A stretch of 64,000 nt of DNA, taken from positions 12,002,501 to 12,066,500 of the forward strand of contig JAXDDX010000003.1 of assembly GCA_034670405.1 (NCBI GenBank), given 5' to 3'. Under the pieces are notes generated by a model. That model searched no databases. It had not been told where the DNA came from and worked only from the letters and a program-made list of their open reading frames with translations. Below are positions 24,385-61,357 of the stretch, piece after piece; position 1 is the first letter of the stretch; each line of letters begins with the position of its first letter. Both the position numbers and the translations under genes were made by a program. The DNA is from Hoplostethus atlanticus (taxonomy: Eukaryota > Chordata > Actinopteri > Trachichthyiformes > Trachichthyidae).

Positions 24385-25086
24385 TTACTTCTCTTCTACA
24401 TTTCTTGGCTGAAGAAAAAAAGAAAAAACAGAAAGGGGTTATCACTTTCATCCGGGAATTATAGCTCTGGATCATTTTTCGTTTTGTCTCATTTTGGCAT
24501 CAACTGTAAAAGAATAACATGATAGGGGTTTTACCACGTGGTAAAACTGGTACGTGTCATGTGGAAGTTGGAGCCATCATTTTGACCTTTTTGAACCGTT
24601 TTATAAGTGTATGTCCCATGACAGCCAGCAGATGTCACTAAAGTCATGTTTCAATTCCTATTGGCAAACCACTGTAGGAAATGGTAGCTTCTACATTGAT
24701 ATCCCCATTTCAGTTCAGCTGATTGATATAGGCTCCCTCACCTTGGATCTGACACAGTTGAACATCTTGTTGCCTTTAGAGGAAAAAGAGACGGAGTGAT
24801 TAGTGCTATTCTATATCCACTCAACACGTCGGTCCTGATAATGTCAGCCGTTGAAAGGGAGGTGTGAGATGGGAGCAAGAGATACCTTTCAGTCCGCTCG
24901 ACTCAATGGAAATGTTTTTTATCATGATTACCATTATTCACATGCACCTTCAACCAGTCTGTCCTACAACATAATGGTAGAGGCTCGACCACATGCTTCA
25001 CATGCACACAACCTCATACACCTCTGCTGTTTTGTTCCTCCCAGCCTCTCTGTCTCTGTTGCTGTTTCTCACACTGACTCTTCAAA

Positions 25087-25136
<50 letters not shown>

Positions 25137-26991
25137 ACAGCCATGCAGGATGTGTCTGTGGACTTACCAGCCAGCAGGATGACAGACAGGAACACGATGA
25201 CCCCAGCGAAGACCAAACCTCCAACACGCAGTGTGTAGTAGTCTGCAGGTTACACACACAGGACTTACCCACCACACCACCACTGTCACCCATGGCAACT
25301 GTATTCTCTCTCTCTCTCCATCCCTCTCTCTCGCTCACTTTTCCTTACTCATTTATTCTCTCTCTCTCTAGTTTTCTCTCTCCTTGTCTCCCTCACTTTT
25401 TTCTTTCTATGATTTGGCTCTTATTAGTCCTCTAGTCCACAGACCGACTACACAAAGACTATAATCATCGTCTCACTCTTTCTCTCTGCACCTCCCCACC
25501 CTCTTTGCCCTTCTAACTTTTAGCTGTGCTGGCCTGTCTGTCTTTCTTCTGTACACCTCTTTGTATTTTTGTATATCTATTTCTTCGATTGGCACTTTCT
25601 ATATAATTTTCCTTTCTGAGCATTGATAGAGGTGAAATTAAAGTTAAACTACTCCATTCAAGCAGTTGCACTTCTAAGTTGTAGTCACTTACCATATACA
25701 AAGTCTGCGTCAAGGTCAGTATTACCTGGGGAGAAACACAGGAGAGAGAGGTGGAAACCAGAAAACCTCAGCTTTAAAAATGAAAGTTTAGGAGACATCT
25801 ACAAAAATTAAAGATCTCAGACTTCTATGGTGCAGATGTCTGATATTTACAGACGTTTTTTTATTGTTGAAATACAGTATGTACTAATGTATTTACTGCT
25901 AAAACTGGGCAAAACACAGCCAATAATATCCGGGGCAAGTATAGACGCAATGTTTAAAAGACATCTAGAGCAGTCTCAGGTCAGCTCACACTCACAGGAG
26001 GTAGGTACTCATGGAGACCATAATGGCTAAGATGTCACCGTTTACACCAACAAACAGTGTTTTAGTTTAGTTTTAAGTGCGGCACCTATATTCTTTGTGG
26101 TCTTCTTTTGTGATTTCACCTCTGTTCCTGTTTCCAGAGTTCAGTCTCCTTGTGTTCTCATTCCACATTGCAATTCATTGATCCCAATTCACGAATCCTA
26201 CTTTTCTCCAAGACTCTTTGAACTATTATTGCACTATGCACCATTTAAATGCACCCACCATGCTTACCCTGCTTAAACGATCTGACTGAATGATTCCCTT
26301 TCTAAGTCTGTGGAAGTTAAGAAAGTAGGTCATAATCAATGCTGGCTGAATCCCTAGATGTGCTTCACCCAGGCCGCATGCTATTTCAGGGAGGCTTTGC
26401 GAGAACGGTGGCAGGTTGGTCATCAGATTTACAATTATAAGGCAAAGCAGAAGTTATGATTACACTTTGATAATTTAATACCATCTTGATCCTCCATGAA
26501 ACTCTCTTCTCGCTTTCCTACCGCCACAGGAGGACTTGAACTCAGCATTCTCAAATCACCAGGCAGTCTCCCTATTCACTATGCCCGCCTGCTGCCAAAC
26601 AGCAGCATATATAGTCAAGATAATACCTAGCAATACATCCAGTGAACATGCTAGGCTGTGGTATAATGCTGAAAATACGGGTGGGAGCACTGAGAGGCTC
26701 CATGACCCCCCGTGGTTTTTGCCCTTTCTCCAGCTAACAGAGGACACTCGACATGGCCTACATTAAGCCACATGTTGCTGTTCATCATTGCCTGGCAATG
26801 CTGCCTAAGGTACTCTCAGCCAACCTTGCTTTAACCTGGCGCATGATTTCCATTGTGTTGTTCTGTTATTCTGAGTGAATATACTAATGTTCAGTGAAAT
26901 ATTACATCAATCAAATAGTTTCATGTTAAAACTGCTCTTCCATTCTCCTGTTTGTAGATAGTTAGAAAGACTTACCTCCAGCAGAAGACAT
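24385..26991 (-). CDS. fxyd2: FXYD-family Na,K-ATPase regulator, best read as fxyd2 (gamma subunit)
   Basis: FXYD proteins are small single-pass proteins that bind the Na,K-ATPase alpha subunit and tune its ion affinity. Five coding exons: 26991-26976, 25725-25693, 25242-25168, 24773-24742 and 24408-24385. They total 180 bases and encode 59 residues. Residues 14-17 are FVYD, followed by the family's YYTLRVGGLVFAG and a membrane segment at about 26-42, then a basic tail ending PRNVEEK. There is no signal peptide: the protein starts MSSAGGNTDLDADF, as in mammalian FXYD2. The family assignment is firm. The choice of FXYD2 rests on the missing leader, short length (mammalian about 66) and position between dscaml1 and fxyd6. 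Another teleost FXYD paralogue is possible. An AATAAA follows at 24299-24294, and a noncoding first exon is likely at 28262. Confidence 0.85.
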
Positions 26992-30721: not shown

Positions 30722-32717
30722 TCAGTTCTCAGCTGGAGTCTCTTTGGCAGCCACCGCAGCTGAAAGAAGTCAAGGACGGGGTGGTTTAGTTGAAGTCCAT
30801 TTCTTTCAAACACATTAAGCATGCCTACTCTTTACATCCGGTCACTCACTACCCCATGCACACGGAGAGAATCAAACCCCCACTCCCCTGCAGTAGGGGT
30901 ACTCCTATGGGTAACTCAATTATGGATGTATGTCGGGGTGAGCCGAAGGTAAGACTGAGCACTGAGGAGAGTTAAAACATGCATCTCACCCTTGGAGACA
31001 ATCAGGTTCTCCTCCTGTGCCTCCTTGTCTCCGGGGGCCCTGGAGAGAGAATCCACAGGTTGTCATGGTGACCAAATAATGTACAGAGACAAAAAAAGCC
31101 CTTACACAACCCAGCCATCTGCCAATCAGAGAGAGACGCTGACATACCTGGGCTTCTGGTTGATAGTGCAGCGGCATCGCCGACCTGGAAACAATACAAA
31201 TCATTAGTCGTATTGACTAGATGTCTGATTGATTAGCTGTATTGTCTCTATCAGAATCAGAATCAGAATCAGTTTTATTGCCAAGTATGTTTTCACATAC
31301 AAGGAATTTGACTTGGTGTTTTGGTGCATAACAATGAACATAGAATAAAAAAAACAAGAATAAAAGTAAGTACTGTAAAAGGCCAAGAATACAATAGAAA
31401 TAGAAAATGTCACACTAAAATGTATGAAAAGATATTATCAGAGATAAGAAAAATAATAATAACAATAAAATAAAAAGAATATGTGCCATATGTGTGTGCA
31501 AGGGTGTGTGCAAAACTTCACTGTGTGGTTTAAATAATGTGCATTGTACAAAAAAAACATTGTGCGTTAATGTAACGCATTGAGACAGATGTGAAGGCTT
31601 TACGTTAAAGATGGTGTAATAACATAGTGTATGAATTACACAATGATTCATTATTTAATGATTCATTGTTTTTAATAGAATTGGAACATCCAATTACAAC
31701 GCATGCATGTACACATAATAAAATGATACACAAACACACACACAGACACACATGTGCATGCACACACACACACACACACACACACATAGGTTAACTTACT
31801 GAGGATGAGAAGAATGCCCACTGTGAACAGCACCACCGCAAATGCCAGTCCTCCAATCCTGAGGCTCTCATAGTCTAAAGAAGGGGTTGGTAAGAGAATG
31901 GTCATTTACGGCCACTACCTTCTGAAGATGGTGAAACACCTTCTGACAGAAAATGCATTGATTTTTCCAGACTTACCGTAGACAAATGGATTTTCAGAAA
32001 CTTTCTCCTTGCCGTCTATAAACACATAGTGGGAAGCATGCAATGAGAACCAGTGTGTTCAGCACATACATGAAATGCTAAAATCTAAAATACAGCATTG
32101 TTCTGCACTCTCTCCTAACCACCACTCTCACCTCTATAGTATGGATCTCACTATACACAACCCCTTTCTGTTCCAAACAGAGTTGGGAATCCTTGGACTT
32201 AATCCATACATGTTCACTGTAGTGAGGAAATCCATTAGGCTCTGACCTGATCTGGAAACCAATAGACCCATCTATTTGGCTGTTAGGACTGAGTGACTAT
32301 GATGCCATTACGGGTTACATCAAGGGTACTCACCCTGCGCACTGGTGTCTGCTACAGCTGAGAGACAGGGAGGGAGGGAAATGGTTTAAGTCAGAGGGTG
32401 ACAGGAAGTGAGAGAGGAGTAGAAGACAGGGATACCAGGAAGGAGAGCAAGGGAGAGAAACAGTCAATCACACTAATGTTGAAATCATATGGAGTTCCTC
32501 TGAACAATCTTCTCTACGTGCTCTGATATTTGTGAGTATGGTTTAACTCAGATTGTACATACACACAAACGAACACACACACACACTTCCCCATAATCTT
32601 TCTGTTTTTCTAACATCAGCTCCGCCAAGTGTCAGTTGTAACTATCTCATCACCATTGCACAGCACCCCACCCTGTTTCAGGTATATGTGTGTCTGTGTG
32701 TGGTTGCATGTGTGTGT

Positions 32718-40403: not shown

Positions 40404-48639
<8,236 letters not shown>

Positions 48640-56967: not shown

Positions 56968-59860
56968 CACGGCCACTATTAATGGACAGTAATGCTTGCT
57001 GCATTGTGGAATGCAACAAGGCCATTCATATCGACATTGTTGTTTTTAAATGTCTGACTGTTATTATGCTGTTTCTTGCCTCATCACAGGTTTTTCAGCT
57101 CAAGACCTTTGGAGTTATTAAATAGAAGCTATTTAGTATTTTCTCTGAGGGAAATGAAGCAGAACAGGCAGTTATTTAATTAAAGAAGTAAAGAGAGGTT
57201 GAAGATCTCTGAAAAGCAGCTGCTGCCTGGTAACTGTTAGTGTCTCAGGGGGTCTATAAAGTCTATTACATTACAGTCATTTAGCAGACGCTTTTGTCCA
57301 AAGCGACTTACAAAGGCGATAGTTGACACTATGTGGGGATCAAGCCCACACCCCTGAGAGTCTCATGCTCTAATGACTAAGCTGGCCTAAAGTCTGTAAA
57401 ATGAAAGTCCCCATTCTGCCCTGCAACACTGGTCCGTAGTTACAACTGACTAAAATGCACAATGCCGGAAGTGAAACTAATGTGGGGAGAAAAGTAAAGA
57501 AGCAGTTGAGACAAGTTTAATGGATAGAAACATGTTTTGATGACCTTGCCCTTTCTATTCCATGAAAATGATTATGCAGCGCTAGCTATTAGTTCAATAT
57601 GAGTCAAAGTAAATGGCCTGTGAGACATTTTGTGTGTTCATGCAACAGACAGACATTAGTCTTTGTCACACATTTTAGCCTAATCTCCTTTGAAATATGT
57701 GACAGTTTTTACATGTTGTCATTATTGTTTACTGACAAAAGCAACTGACCTTTCTCTATGAGAGCCCGAACGTCACCCGTCCTGCCTACTTACCAATCCT
57801 GGTAATTTATTAGATGTTGTTCAATAAGTATTACTGTAAAGAAATGATTCACTTTGTCACTCAGTGATTAAAATACATTTCCTCCCTGACATGTTTTGTA
57901 CATTTTACACAAACTATAACACAAACAGGAAAAACAAACAGGCGTTTCTATTTCATGTGGGTTTAATACATAGAGAAACCATGACTCAAAGAAATGCGAA
58001 AAAGCAAGGAATACCCCGATACAAAAAGGGACACCTATTGAAAAATACACATTACATCTGACTTACTGTAACAGGGATCCCCATATGTAAATTCAAAGAA
58101 AAGGAACTTCTGAGCAGCATTGTGTTTCCTCTTTAAGACTCCTCCTTGGTTTCTCTTAATCATGGGGAAAAGTCCCACTTTAAAATGAACCAAATATTAT
58201 CAATATGGCTGAAGATCCAATATTTCTTTCATTAAAATGAAAAACAAAAATCAGCATCAATAAATAATACAGTGCTTTGTATTATAACATTGTATTATAA
58301 CTCACATAGTTATTAATGGCTGTTTTGGGAAAGATGTTTGCAAAGGATAGTGAAGGATAGTGTTTTGGTAGCTAGCTTGACTCATGGGCCTTTCTTGTCA
58401 AGCTCTGGGATACTCCCTCTTGAGTGAGAAACTGAAAAGTACAGCATATACCATGCCAGATTATCGTTTGTGGTGCCAACACCTTGCTGCAGATTATTTT
58501 GAGGAGGTGGTGAATTCTGGTAACCAAAACGACAATGTGGTTATGTCAATCTTATTTCCTGTGGCTTTATAACTCTATAAGGTTCGGGGGCCTGGCAGCG
58601 TCCTACAGTTTATCAGCGACCATCAGTTACTAAATTACTAGCACATATTCTGTACAGTCCTGACATTTTGGTATTTCCAATCATACACATTGAAAGGAAA
58701 CCAAAGGAGAGTTTTACTCAGATGATGACATGAGTATTTGTTTCTGAATACAGGAAGTTGTGGGAATTTTGTGAGAATTTGCAGATAAGGTTAATAGGTA
58801 ACGTTACATTTTTACAATAATAAAACTTAAGTTAATTCTATTAGATACTGCTCACTAAAGGACAGACATACTTTGTAAAAATATATATATATATTTACCC
58901 AAGTGATTTAAAGGGTGATGAAGTTTGACAGAGGATAGAGGTATAGAGGAGTAAAGTGACTGATTTGAACTTCCCTCATCATCGCACTGTGGCAACAAAC
59001 CCTTGATAACCCTTTTCAGTGATTGTGTGGCATAGAAATGATTCAACTGTTGATCTCTGATGTTTATATAAAGGAAGAGATGCAGGGAAAAGATTGAACC
59101 ATTACAGCACAATGAGTGGATCACTTGCTATTTAGACTAATGTGACTAATGTGTCAATTACAGACAAAACACATAAATACATTTATTTGCTTATTTCTCC
59201 AGTTGTGAAAAAGATTTGCATCTCCATTTCCTTTTTTTTTGTCTGTTGTGTGTTCCATGCCCCTTAGACTTATGTAACCCCTTCAATCAAAACTCATTGT
59301 GTTTTCATTCAGAGCTTAATCTAGTTTTTGACTGAAGAGAAAAGTTTACTTTTTTCCTCCTCATATCAGAGAAACATAGAGATGGAGGAACAGGCGCTGG
59401 TTTTGTCAAACATAACAATATGAGACATCAAAGGACTTCAAACTCAGCCAGCCGTCGAGAGTATCAAACGGGTAGTCGATATGTGAATTTGGAGGGAAGT
59501 CACCTGCAGCTTACAAGAAAACAGACATATGCTGTGGTGCTGTGGTTGAGCTGTTGACATTCCGCCTTCGTCCAAAAGGTTCCACCTATCAGCAGCACAG
59601 CAGTGTGTGTGCTTACTCAAATATGTACCTCGAGAAACCCCATTTCTTGACACCATATGATAAAGTGTGACAGTTAGGTGACATAGCGGCTGATTTAAGG
59701 ATATAGGTTTAATGCAGACTCTGCCCACTGTCTGTGGAGGCGATTGTGACTCAGTGCTTGGGAAAGTGATAGAGACGGCAAATGTCTCTATCACAGTTGT
59801 GGTTGTTTCCAGGGTCCTGTCTGATTGAATTAGTTTCATTTCATGATGCTGCTGACGGAG
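56968..59860. other. Tail-to-tail interval between il10ra and the small membrane-protein gene
   Basis: This includes the il10ra 3' UTR, whose end is not fixed: ATTAAA at about 57116 and at about 57868, and AATAAA near 58259, are candidates. A SINE-like repeat lies at 57266-57392. No coding exon was recognised in the rest. Confidence 0.6.
57266..57392. repeat. Widespread teleost SINE-like repeat
   Basis: It contains TCATTTAGCAGACGCTTTTG, then TCCAAAGCGACTTACAA and a tRNA-like tail near ATGCTCTAATGACTAAGCTGG. This arrangement recurs throughout fish genomes. It lies about 300 bases past the il10ra stop, probably in the 3' UTR. Confidence 0.75.
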
Positions 59861-59871
59861 AAGGGAGGAGG

Positions 59872-59961
59872 AGGCTTCTTTAGGCCCACCTTGCTGTGGA
59901 TAGAAAGATCAAACACGTCAACCTTACCCGCGCAACCTGACAAGCAACTGCAGAGAAGTAG
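59872..59961 (-). CDS. Possible 3' exons of the small membrane-protein gene
   Basis: If the GTAAGTG donor at 60001 is used, a 20-base microexon bounded by TTCTCTGCAG and GTAAGG (about 59932-59951) and a last exon after CTATCCACAG (about 59893) would extend the frame by about a dozen residues, ending ARWA and a stop. The phases fit, but the exons are tiny and unsupported otherwise. Treat as a hypothesis. Confidence 0.2.
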
Positions 59962-60001: not shown

Positions 60002-61357
60002 GTGAGCACTTTGTCTTTCAATGAGGGCTCTGCAGAGAAATAGAGTAGTAAAAAGAGAAAACGAAAGAGAGAAGAAGAGACAGAGATATGAGTTTGTAAT
60101 TATCCGTAGCATGACAAAATGACCAGCCACTATACTCATCATGTTGGGTGATGTTGTCCTGTGTCGAGCATGTAAGCAGGTGCATGCTAGTTCCTCAAGC
60201 TCCACTCACCTTTCTTCTTGCAGGAGTCTTTGCACTTCTTGCAGCAGTCTTTGCACGTCTTGCATTTGTACTTGCAGCAGAATTGTACAATGGCAATGGT
60301 GAAGAGGATACCCAGGATCCCAAAGCCCACAGCGATCCCCACTGCCACTGAGTTCACCGTGCTCCCTGTAAAGGAGAGGAGAGGAGAGGAGAGGAGAGGA
60401 GAGGAGAGGAGAAATCGATCATAGTCATAGCTTAACACATTTTCACAGATTTATGAGCATTTGAAGAGCAATAAACAAGTTGAATAATAAAAAGGTATTT
60501 TTTATACTCGATGGGGCAGACATGGTCATGTTCCTTACATCATGGTTGTAAATTGAAATAGCAGTCTGCCAGGCTACGTGGGCATCTGTCACATTGACTG
60601 ACTATTTACTCTCTGATGAAGAGAAATCGATCCCTGGGAATGATACTGGCCTGGCTTCATCAGCATTCTTTGGAGAGACACTAAAATGATTAGTATGGAG
60701 GGGATTTAAGAGACCAGAATACAGCCAGCAGCTGGCACATGAAGCAAACAGGTGAGGTATTAACCACACTGTCGTCCCATTGTCTCTTAACAATGCATAG
60801 ACATCAGCAGCACCAGATGGAGAAGGGCACTTTATAACTTTACTTTTTCAACTTTGTTAACTCACAGTAATTTACCAGCATGCGCCTAATAGCAACTATA
60901 CTAGACAATAACCAACCAAGATATTATATTAATATAGTGGAGTTGCTTGCAATGCGTCATGACAGGATACAGGCAAATCACAGAGCTGCGTGAATTGTAG
61001 CACTAACAACAAAGTAAAGCATTAAAAGAATTCAAAGGAAGCGCAGTAAAAATAAATAGATAAATGAACTTATTTTTTCATCTGAATCGGATGCCAATGA
61101 TTTAGTTCCCTGACAAAAAAGGTATATGACGTATAAGGTATAAAGGTACATGGATGTGAATAAATTGGTTGAAATGCACATAAGATTCAACACCAAGGTT
61201 GTGAAAGTAAAATGTAAGAAGAGCATTACTGCGTTGATACATTACTGTGCAGCACAATTTTCAGTTTTTCTGCATTATTTTGCATCTTGATAAATAAATA
61301 AATGGTAAATAATATTGTAACACATCTCAGTTGAAAACTCTTACCACTGTTCCCCAT
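60002..61357 (-). CDS. Small Cys/Lys-rich single-pass membrane protein (positional candidate: smim35)
   Basis: Exon 1 (61357-61345) reads MGNS then a split Gly codon before GTAAGAG. Exon 2 (60365-60210) reads GSTVNSVAVGIAVGFG, a helix through about residue 33, and then a tail with nine cysteines and many lysines (CCKYKCKTCKDCC, KKCKDSCKKK). A third exon at 60029-60002 adds EPSLKDKVL and is followed either by the in-frame TAA at 60000-59998 or by the strong donor GTAAGTG, which overlaps that stop. Phases agree (1-1, 1-1). I do not recognise the family. Human SMIM35 occupies this place and orientation next to IL10RA, but I cannot confirm homology from memory. MGNSGS fits the N-myristoylation rule (Gly2, Ser6), and the membrane-proximal cysteines could be palmitoylated. 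Function unknown. Confidence 0.65.
60371..60411 (+). repeat. (GGAGA)n tract beside the acceptor of exon 2
   Basis: About eight copies of a GGAGA/GAGGA unit. On the minus strand it is a TCTCC-type pyrimidine tract ending four bases before the TTTACAG acceptor (60366), so it effectively serves as the polypyrimidine tract of that intron. Confidence 0.85.

Follow-up and report, generated by a model that had tools for sequence, protein, structure and literature searches.

Does the Cys/Lys-rich reading frame near one end of the window (the whole 64,000-nucleotide stretch of Hoplostethus atlanticus DNA that was analysed) belong to a genuine gene and, if it does, which gene is it and how might its product sit in the membrane? 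The locus has been compared with human SMIM35, a gene that seems to have been little studied and for which we found no function in the literature. In a search made mostly without subscription journals, neither SMIM35 nor TMPRSS4-AS1 (which we take to be the earlier name of human SMIM35) occurred in any title or abstract found, and no paper was found that joins SMIM35 with IL10RA. A full gene model from a fish, together with an unusual heptad Cys/Lys tail, gives work on SMIM35 a concrete starting point. Should the tail be acylated and the C-terminus be a Homer ligand, both properties are open to direct tests; otherwise the result is an ordinary orthologue annotation.

The best overall explanation, and one that we hold to be reasonably likely, is that the locus encodes the fish SMIM35 orthologue, an 84-amino acid single-pass membrane protein with an S-acylated cytosolic Cys tail. 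The gene is very probably real and is completed here by a fourth exon; its function can only be inferred.

Gene structure and predicted product

Four exons on the minus strand, all bounded by GT-AG introns and joined in matching phases (intron phases 1, 1 and 2), continue one another into a complete frame with a stop. Coding exon 1 (61345..61357, minus strand, 13 nt) begins with an ATG at 61357, encodes MGNS and is followed by the donor GTAAGA after 61345; two sense codons separate this ATG from an in-frame TAA on its 5' side. Intron 1 (60366..61344, minus strand, phase 1) leads to coding exon 2 (60210..60365, minus strand, 156 nt), which contributes the transmembrane helix and the Cys/Lys tail. 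Coding exon 3 (60002..60029, minus strand, 28 nt) ends at the donor GTAAGT; if that donor is left unused, the frame stops immediately and the product is a 66-amino acid isoform. Coding exon 4 (59836..59893, minus strand, 58 nt including the TGA stop) encodes the KKPPPPFSVSSIMK end with its PPxxF motif, and a possible poly(A) signal, ATTAAA (59708..59713, minus strand), starts 123 nt past the stop. The full product comprises 84 amino acids, including eight cysteines and 16 lysines.

An earlier note on this DNA had placed exon 1, exon 2 and the junction 60210/60029 exactly right, in phase and with GT-AG borders, and the MGNSGS N-terminus, Gly-containing hydrophobic helix and Cys/Lys tail that it described are all present in the product. 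The third exon that it anticipated was found at 60002-60029, but the range that it assigned to the gene (60002..61357) omits exon 4 at 59836-59893.

The acceptors of the gene's three introns contain 14, 12 and 11 pyrimidines, respectively, in 15 positions. Near the 3' end of intron 1 lies a pentanucleotide microsatellite (60372-60412; AGGAG repeated 8.2 times on the plus strand), which makes up the greater part of the polypyrimidine tract in front of exon 2. A changed length of this microsatellite could affect splicing of the gene.

Genomic position

The strongest argument for the gene is its position. The gene order across the region is FXYD (minus strand), FXYD (minus), a trypsin-type protease (minus), a class II cytokine receptor (plus), the candidate gene (minus) and an SRCR-trypsin protease (plus). 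The trypsin-domain exons of the first protease lie at 40.4-43.1 kb (minus strand), where all three pieces scored above the Pfam cut-off and a fourth, LDLa-like piece scored below it; the adjacent stretch at window positions 41344-41607 gave no Pfam match. Class II cytokine receptor domains were recognized by Pfam at 53.4-55.4 kb (plus strand), with one of the five receptor pieces tested at 53.4-57.0 kb above the cut-off, two below it and two without a match. Past the end of the window, among the flank frames listed, SRCR and trypsin domains were found above the Pfam cut-off at 71.7-72.2 and 74.9-75.1 kb (plus strand, extended coordinates), with an LDLa match just below the cut-off within 71.7-75.1 kb (plus strand, extended coordinates). 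By domain and order, this protease gene beyond the window appears to be TMPRSS4-type; domains and gene order are likewise the basis on which the neighbours are named TMPRSS13, IL10RA and TMPRSS4.

We take the human order at 11q23.3 to be FXYD2, FXYD6, TMPRSS13, IL10RA, SMIM35 and TMPRSS4, with SMIM35 presumably lying between IL10RA and TMPRSS4 on the strand opposite TMPRSS4. The fish order matches this one, and we therefore call the gene fish SMIM35 by synteny; judged by its position alone, it is probably the fish orthologue of SMIM35. The position and orientation that had been proposed for it agree with this human map, a TMPRSS4-type gene having now been found past the window. Like human SMIM35, the candidate is small, has one membrane helix (84 amino acids; mean hydropathy 2.61) and occupies the same neighbourhood in the same orientation, flanked by the receptor gene and the TMPRSS4-type gene and on the strand opposite the latter.

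Published coordinates for the locus include an SMIM35 intron variant at 11:117,886,314 (assembly unstated in the excerpt) from PMC11666716, and a TMPRSS4-AS1 intron variant at hg19 11:117,947,268 from PMC5704019. An interval in pig, as given in part of PMC12205944, holds TMPRSS13, JAML, TMPRSS4, CD3E and SMIM35 together, without IL10RA in that part of the text.

From 71.7 to 96.3 kb (extended coordinates), the frames listed show the TMPRSS4-type gene followed by MRE11 (minus strand) and then by a guanylate cyclase (HNOBA) gene. The order downstream of TMPRSS4 is unlike what we take to be the human one, which suggests a rearrangement there.

Membrane topology and the Cys/Lys tail

A single hydrophobic helix spans roughly residues 11-33 of the protein (the 19-residue Kyte-Doolittle mean peaks at 2.61, for residues 13-31), with Cys34 and Cys35 at its end. 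Residues 1-10 have a net charge of 0, against +12 for residues 34-84. According to the positive-inside rule the positively charged flank of such a helix stays cytosolic, so that this charge distribution predicts an N-out, C-in topology, with the N-terminus outside and the tail in the cytosol. An N-out topology would leave Gly2 outside the cytosol; the predicted orientation favours palmitoylation of the cysteines and disfavours N-myristoylation.

The tail's cysteines are found at residues 34, 35, 39, 42, 45, 46, 49 and 53, giving eight in place of the nine previously claimed. The CxxC-like rhythm that had been attributed to them is present to the extent that there are several CxxC pairs, but the underlying pattern is really a 21-bp tandem repeat of three units (60214..60276, minus strand) that encodes a seven-residue unit (CKYKCKT-CKDCCKK-CKDSCKK). 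Repeat units 2 and 3 are identical at 20 of 21 bases, and unit 1 agrees with either of them at 15 of 21. Six of the eight cysteines (35, 39, 42, 46, 49 and 53) fall on a single heptad stripe, which is in register with two glycines of the membrane helix, Gly14 and Gly18. That many on one stripe occurred in 0.8% of 100000 permutations of the 23 tail residues; since the heptad stripe arises from tandem duplication, however, such regularity cannot be counted separately as a sign of selection. If the tail is helical, the seven-residue unit would set these six cysteines on one face.

We propose that the helix would insert as a reverse signal-anchor, placing the N-terminus outside and the tail in the cytosol, and that the juxtamembrane stretch could carry on as an amphipathic helix with the six stripe cysteines on one face. 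At the inner face of the membrane, zDHHC enzymes would then S-acylate these cysteines, and their acylation might pin the helix to the membrane and set the protein's membrane residence or choice of partner, as in small palmitoylated regulators like phospholemman; the proline-rich C-terminus would be the likely partner-binding part. We put the chances that the cytosolic tail is palmitoylated at about even. According to PMC7395175, phospholemman is palmitoylated, and an amphipathic helix next to the membrane determines the palmitoylation of NCX1, with the same suggested by analogy for zDHHC5. The same paper records that C245 of zDHHC5, though nearby, is not acylated, and that the EGFR sites for zDHHC20 sit in an unstructured tail.

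The earlier note had left a choice between a lipid-modified protein of the inner face and a metal-binding tail. What stands of that description is a small single-pass protein with a Cys/Lys tail adjoining its helix, for which we infer palmitoylation to be the better option; N-myristoylation is not supported. A metal site, in which the eight cysteines would bind zinc or copper just under the membrane, seems unlikely. Eight cysteines within 20 residues, several of them in CxxC pairs, would be compatible with such a site, but the protein lacks histidine and matches no Pfam family at E ≤ 10, and the 4-3-4-3-4 spacing of its cysteines follows from the 21-bp repeat, a heptad being a simpler account of it than a metal-site pattern.

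It is also rather improbable that the protein is a lipidated N-in anchor of the inner face, with Gly2 N-myristoylated, the cysteines palmitoylated and the hydrophobic segment failing to translocate the N-terminus. The N-terminus does fit the motif of N-myristoyltransferase substrates, as had been pointed out, in the sense that MGNSGST matches the PROSITE myristoylation pattern; that pattern is short, and chance matches to it are frequent. Set against this match are the strongly hydrophobic segment that begins only about 10 residues into the protein, and the location of all of the net positive charge after the helix, from which N-out insertion is expected and Gly2 is predicted to lie outside the cytosol.

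A possible Homer ligand at the C-terminus

For the S-acylated, N-out protein that we favour, the C-terminus offers one further lead. Exon 4 encodes PPPPF, a literal match to PPxxF, which is the consensus for the Homer EVH1 domain in PMC11237882; there, the canonical PPxxF site of FAT1 is described as binding Homer1 weakly. The candidate resembles Homer EVH1 ligands in having PPPPF in its last exon, and differs in that the match is short (five residues, noticed post hoc) and also arises by shuffling, PPxxF being present in 605 of 50000 shuffles of the 84-amino acid protein. PPPPF is therefore a possible Homer EVH1 ligand, and a lead only.

A more elaborate model, which we regard as a long shot, is that the heptad Cys ladder of fish SMIM35, grown by 21-bp duplication, would make the protein an acylation-tunable adaptor, in which the number of palmitoylated rungs would set the lie of the juxtamembrane helix and PPPPF would present a Homer EVH1 ligand at the membrane. 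If true, this would tie SMIM35 to Homer signalling scaffolds. In section 21 of PMC13090377, a human fetal nasal atlas, SMIM35 stands beside GNRH1 in a list of GnRH-cell markers.

Coding evidence and searches for relatives

In favour of a real gene, when the 900 bases that follow exon 2 were put through 500 dinucleotide shuffles, 20 of these gave a comparable chain of two introns with strong sites that ended in a stop in frame. The acceptor threshold was set at 11 of 15 pyrimidines, the value of the weakest real acceptor, and the resulting 4% is approximate. The test covers the chain downstream of exon 2. Donors of the form GTRAGW occur on the minus strand at 1.1 per kb. GC content at codon positions 1, 2 and 3 of the exon 2 coding frame is 0.33, 0.41 and 0.75, compared with a third-position value of only 0.48 in the neighbouring receptor tail; a second reading frame of exon 2 is likewise free of stops.

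In 124 kb there are 1040 segments that extend from stop to stop over 50 amino acids or more. Five of these, the SMIM35 candidate among them, combine a helix with a mean of 2.5 or higher with six or more cysteines after it. In the other four, runs of CVCV look like translated TG/GT microsatellites, and FXYD helices are also present in two of the four. At least eight cysteines within 23 residues were found in 33 of the 1040 segments, again including the candidate, so that Cys density alone is not rare. The open 156-nt exon by itself is weak evidence; combined, the evidence is fair, and moderately more than chance would give.

Pfam gave no family for the 84-amino acid protein at E ≤ 10, and exon 2 alone gave only TraL (0.26) and PetM (5.4), both below the cut-off. 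Two NCBIfam matches fell far below the cut-off, and among solved structures there were two weak matches, to sc-CC-5-24 (E 0.19; presumably a designed coiled coil, judging by its name) and to a cytosolic nucleotidase (0.9). Within the same genome no second significant locus was found among three candidates scored, which were exon 2 itself, exon 4 with adjoining intron, and a third at E 2.92. We took the third as noise; one filter gave no frame for it. When the 51-residue exon 2 query was run against prokaryote and viral contigs, the 435 and 44 pattern matches, respectively, included none that passed tblastn, a result with no bearing on fishes.

We are confident that the locus is a real protein-coding gene. 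It is improbable that it represents a non-coding antisense transcript or a chance frame, in which case the Cys/Lys tail would be a translated minisatellite. The coincidence of the tail with the 21-bp repeat would suit such an origin, as would the lack of a relative in the Pfam, same-genome, prokaryote and viral contig searches, the appearance of the downstream chain in shuffled sequence and the number of equally Cys-dense segments; the human locus, moreover, is still annotated as the non-coding RNA TMPRSS4-AS1 in a 2017 paper (PMC5704019). A chance or non-coding origin is opposed by a frame that runs complete from ATG to stop over four exons and includes a membrane helix, by the base bias of exon 2 and by a position syntenic with that of a named small membrane protein.

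Comparison with the FXYD family

Proteins of the FXYD family are small, cross the membrane once and have a cytosolic tail that is short, basic and contains Cys. Two FXYD helix exons are present on the minus strand at window positions 25085-25249 and 31675-31905; both reach the cut-off of the family profile, with matches to PF02038 at 3e-06 and 4.7e-11, and served as positive controls. The candidate shares with phospholemman and its relatives a small single-pass design and a basic Cys-containing tail, and differs from them in its PF02038 result, its N-terminus and its exon layout.

Descent as a diverged tandem copy of these Na,K-ATPase regulators, which lie about 28 and 35 kb off in the same cluster and are proteins of the same type (a helix, then a basic Cys-containing tail), is very improbable: neither the whole protein nor exon 2 matches PF02038 at E ≤ 10, F-x-Y-D is absent from the spliced protein, also before the helix (residues 1-10 are MGNSGSTVNS), and the exon layout is different, with helix and tail sharing exon 2 in the candidate but the FXYD helix exons apparently closing with a GTAAG donor where the helix ends. 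Membership of the FXYD family was rejected on the lack of a PF02038 match where both FXYD exons of the same window do match. An uninterrupted F-x-Y-D scan of the minus strand at 15-40 kb missed the real FXYD genes too, their helix exons beginning at or inside the motif. The FXYD pair shares its cluster with the trypsin-type protease and the cytokine receptor.
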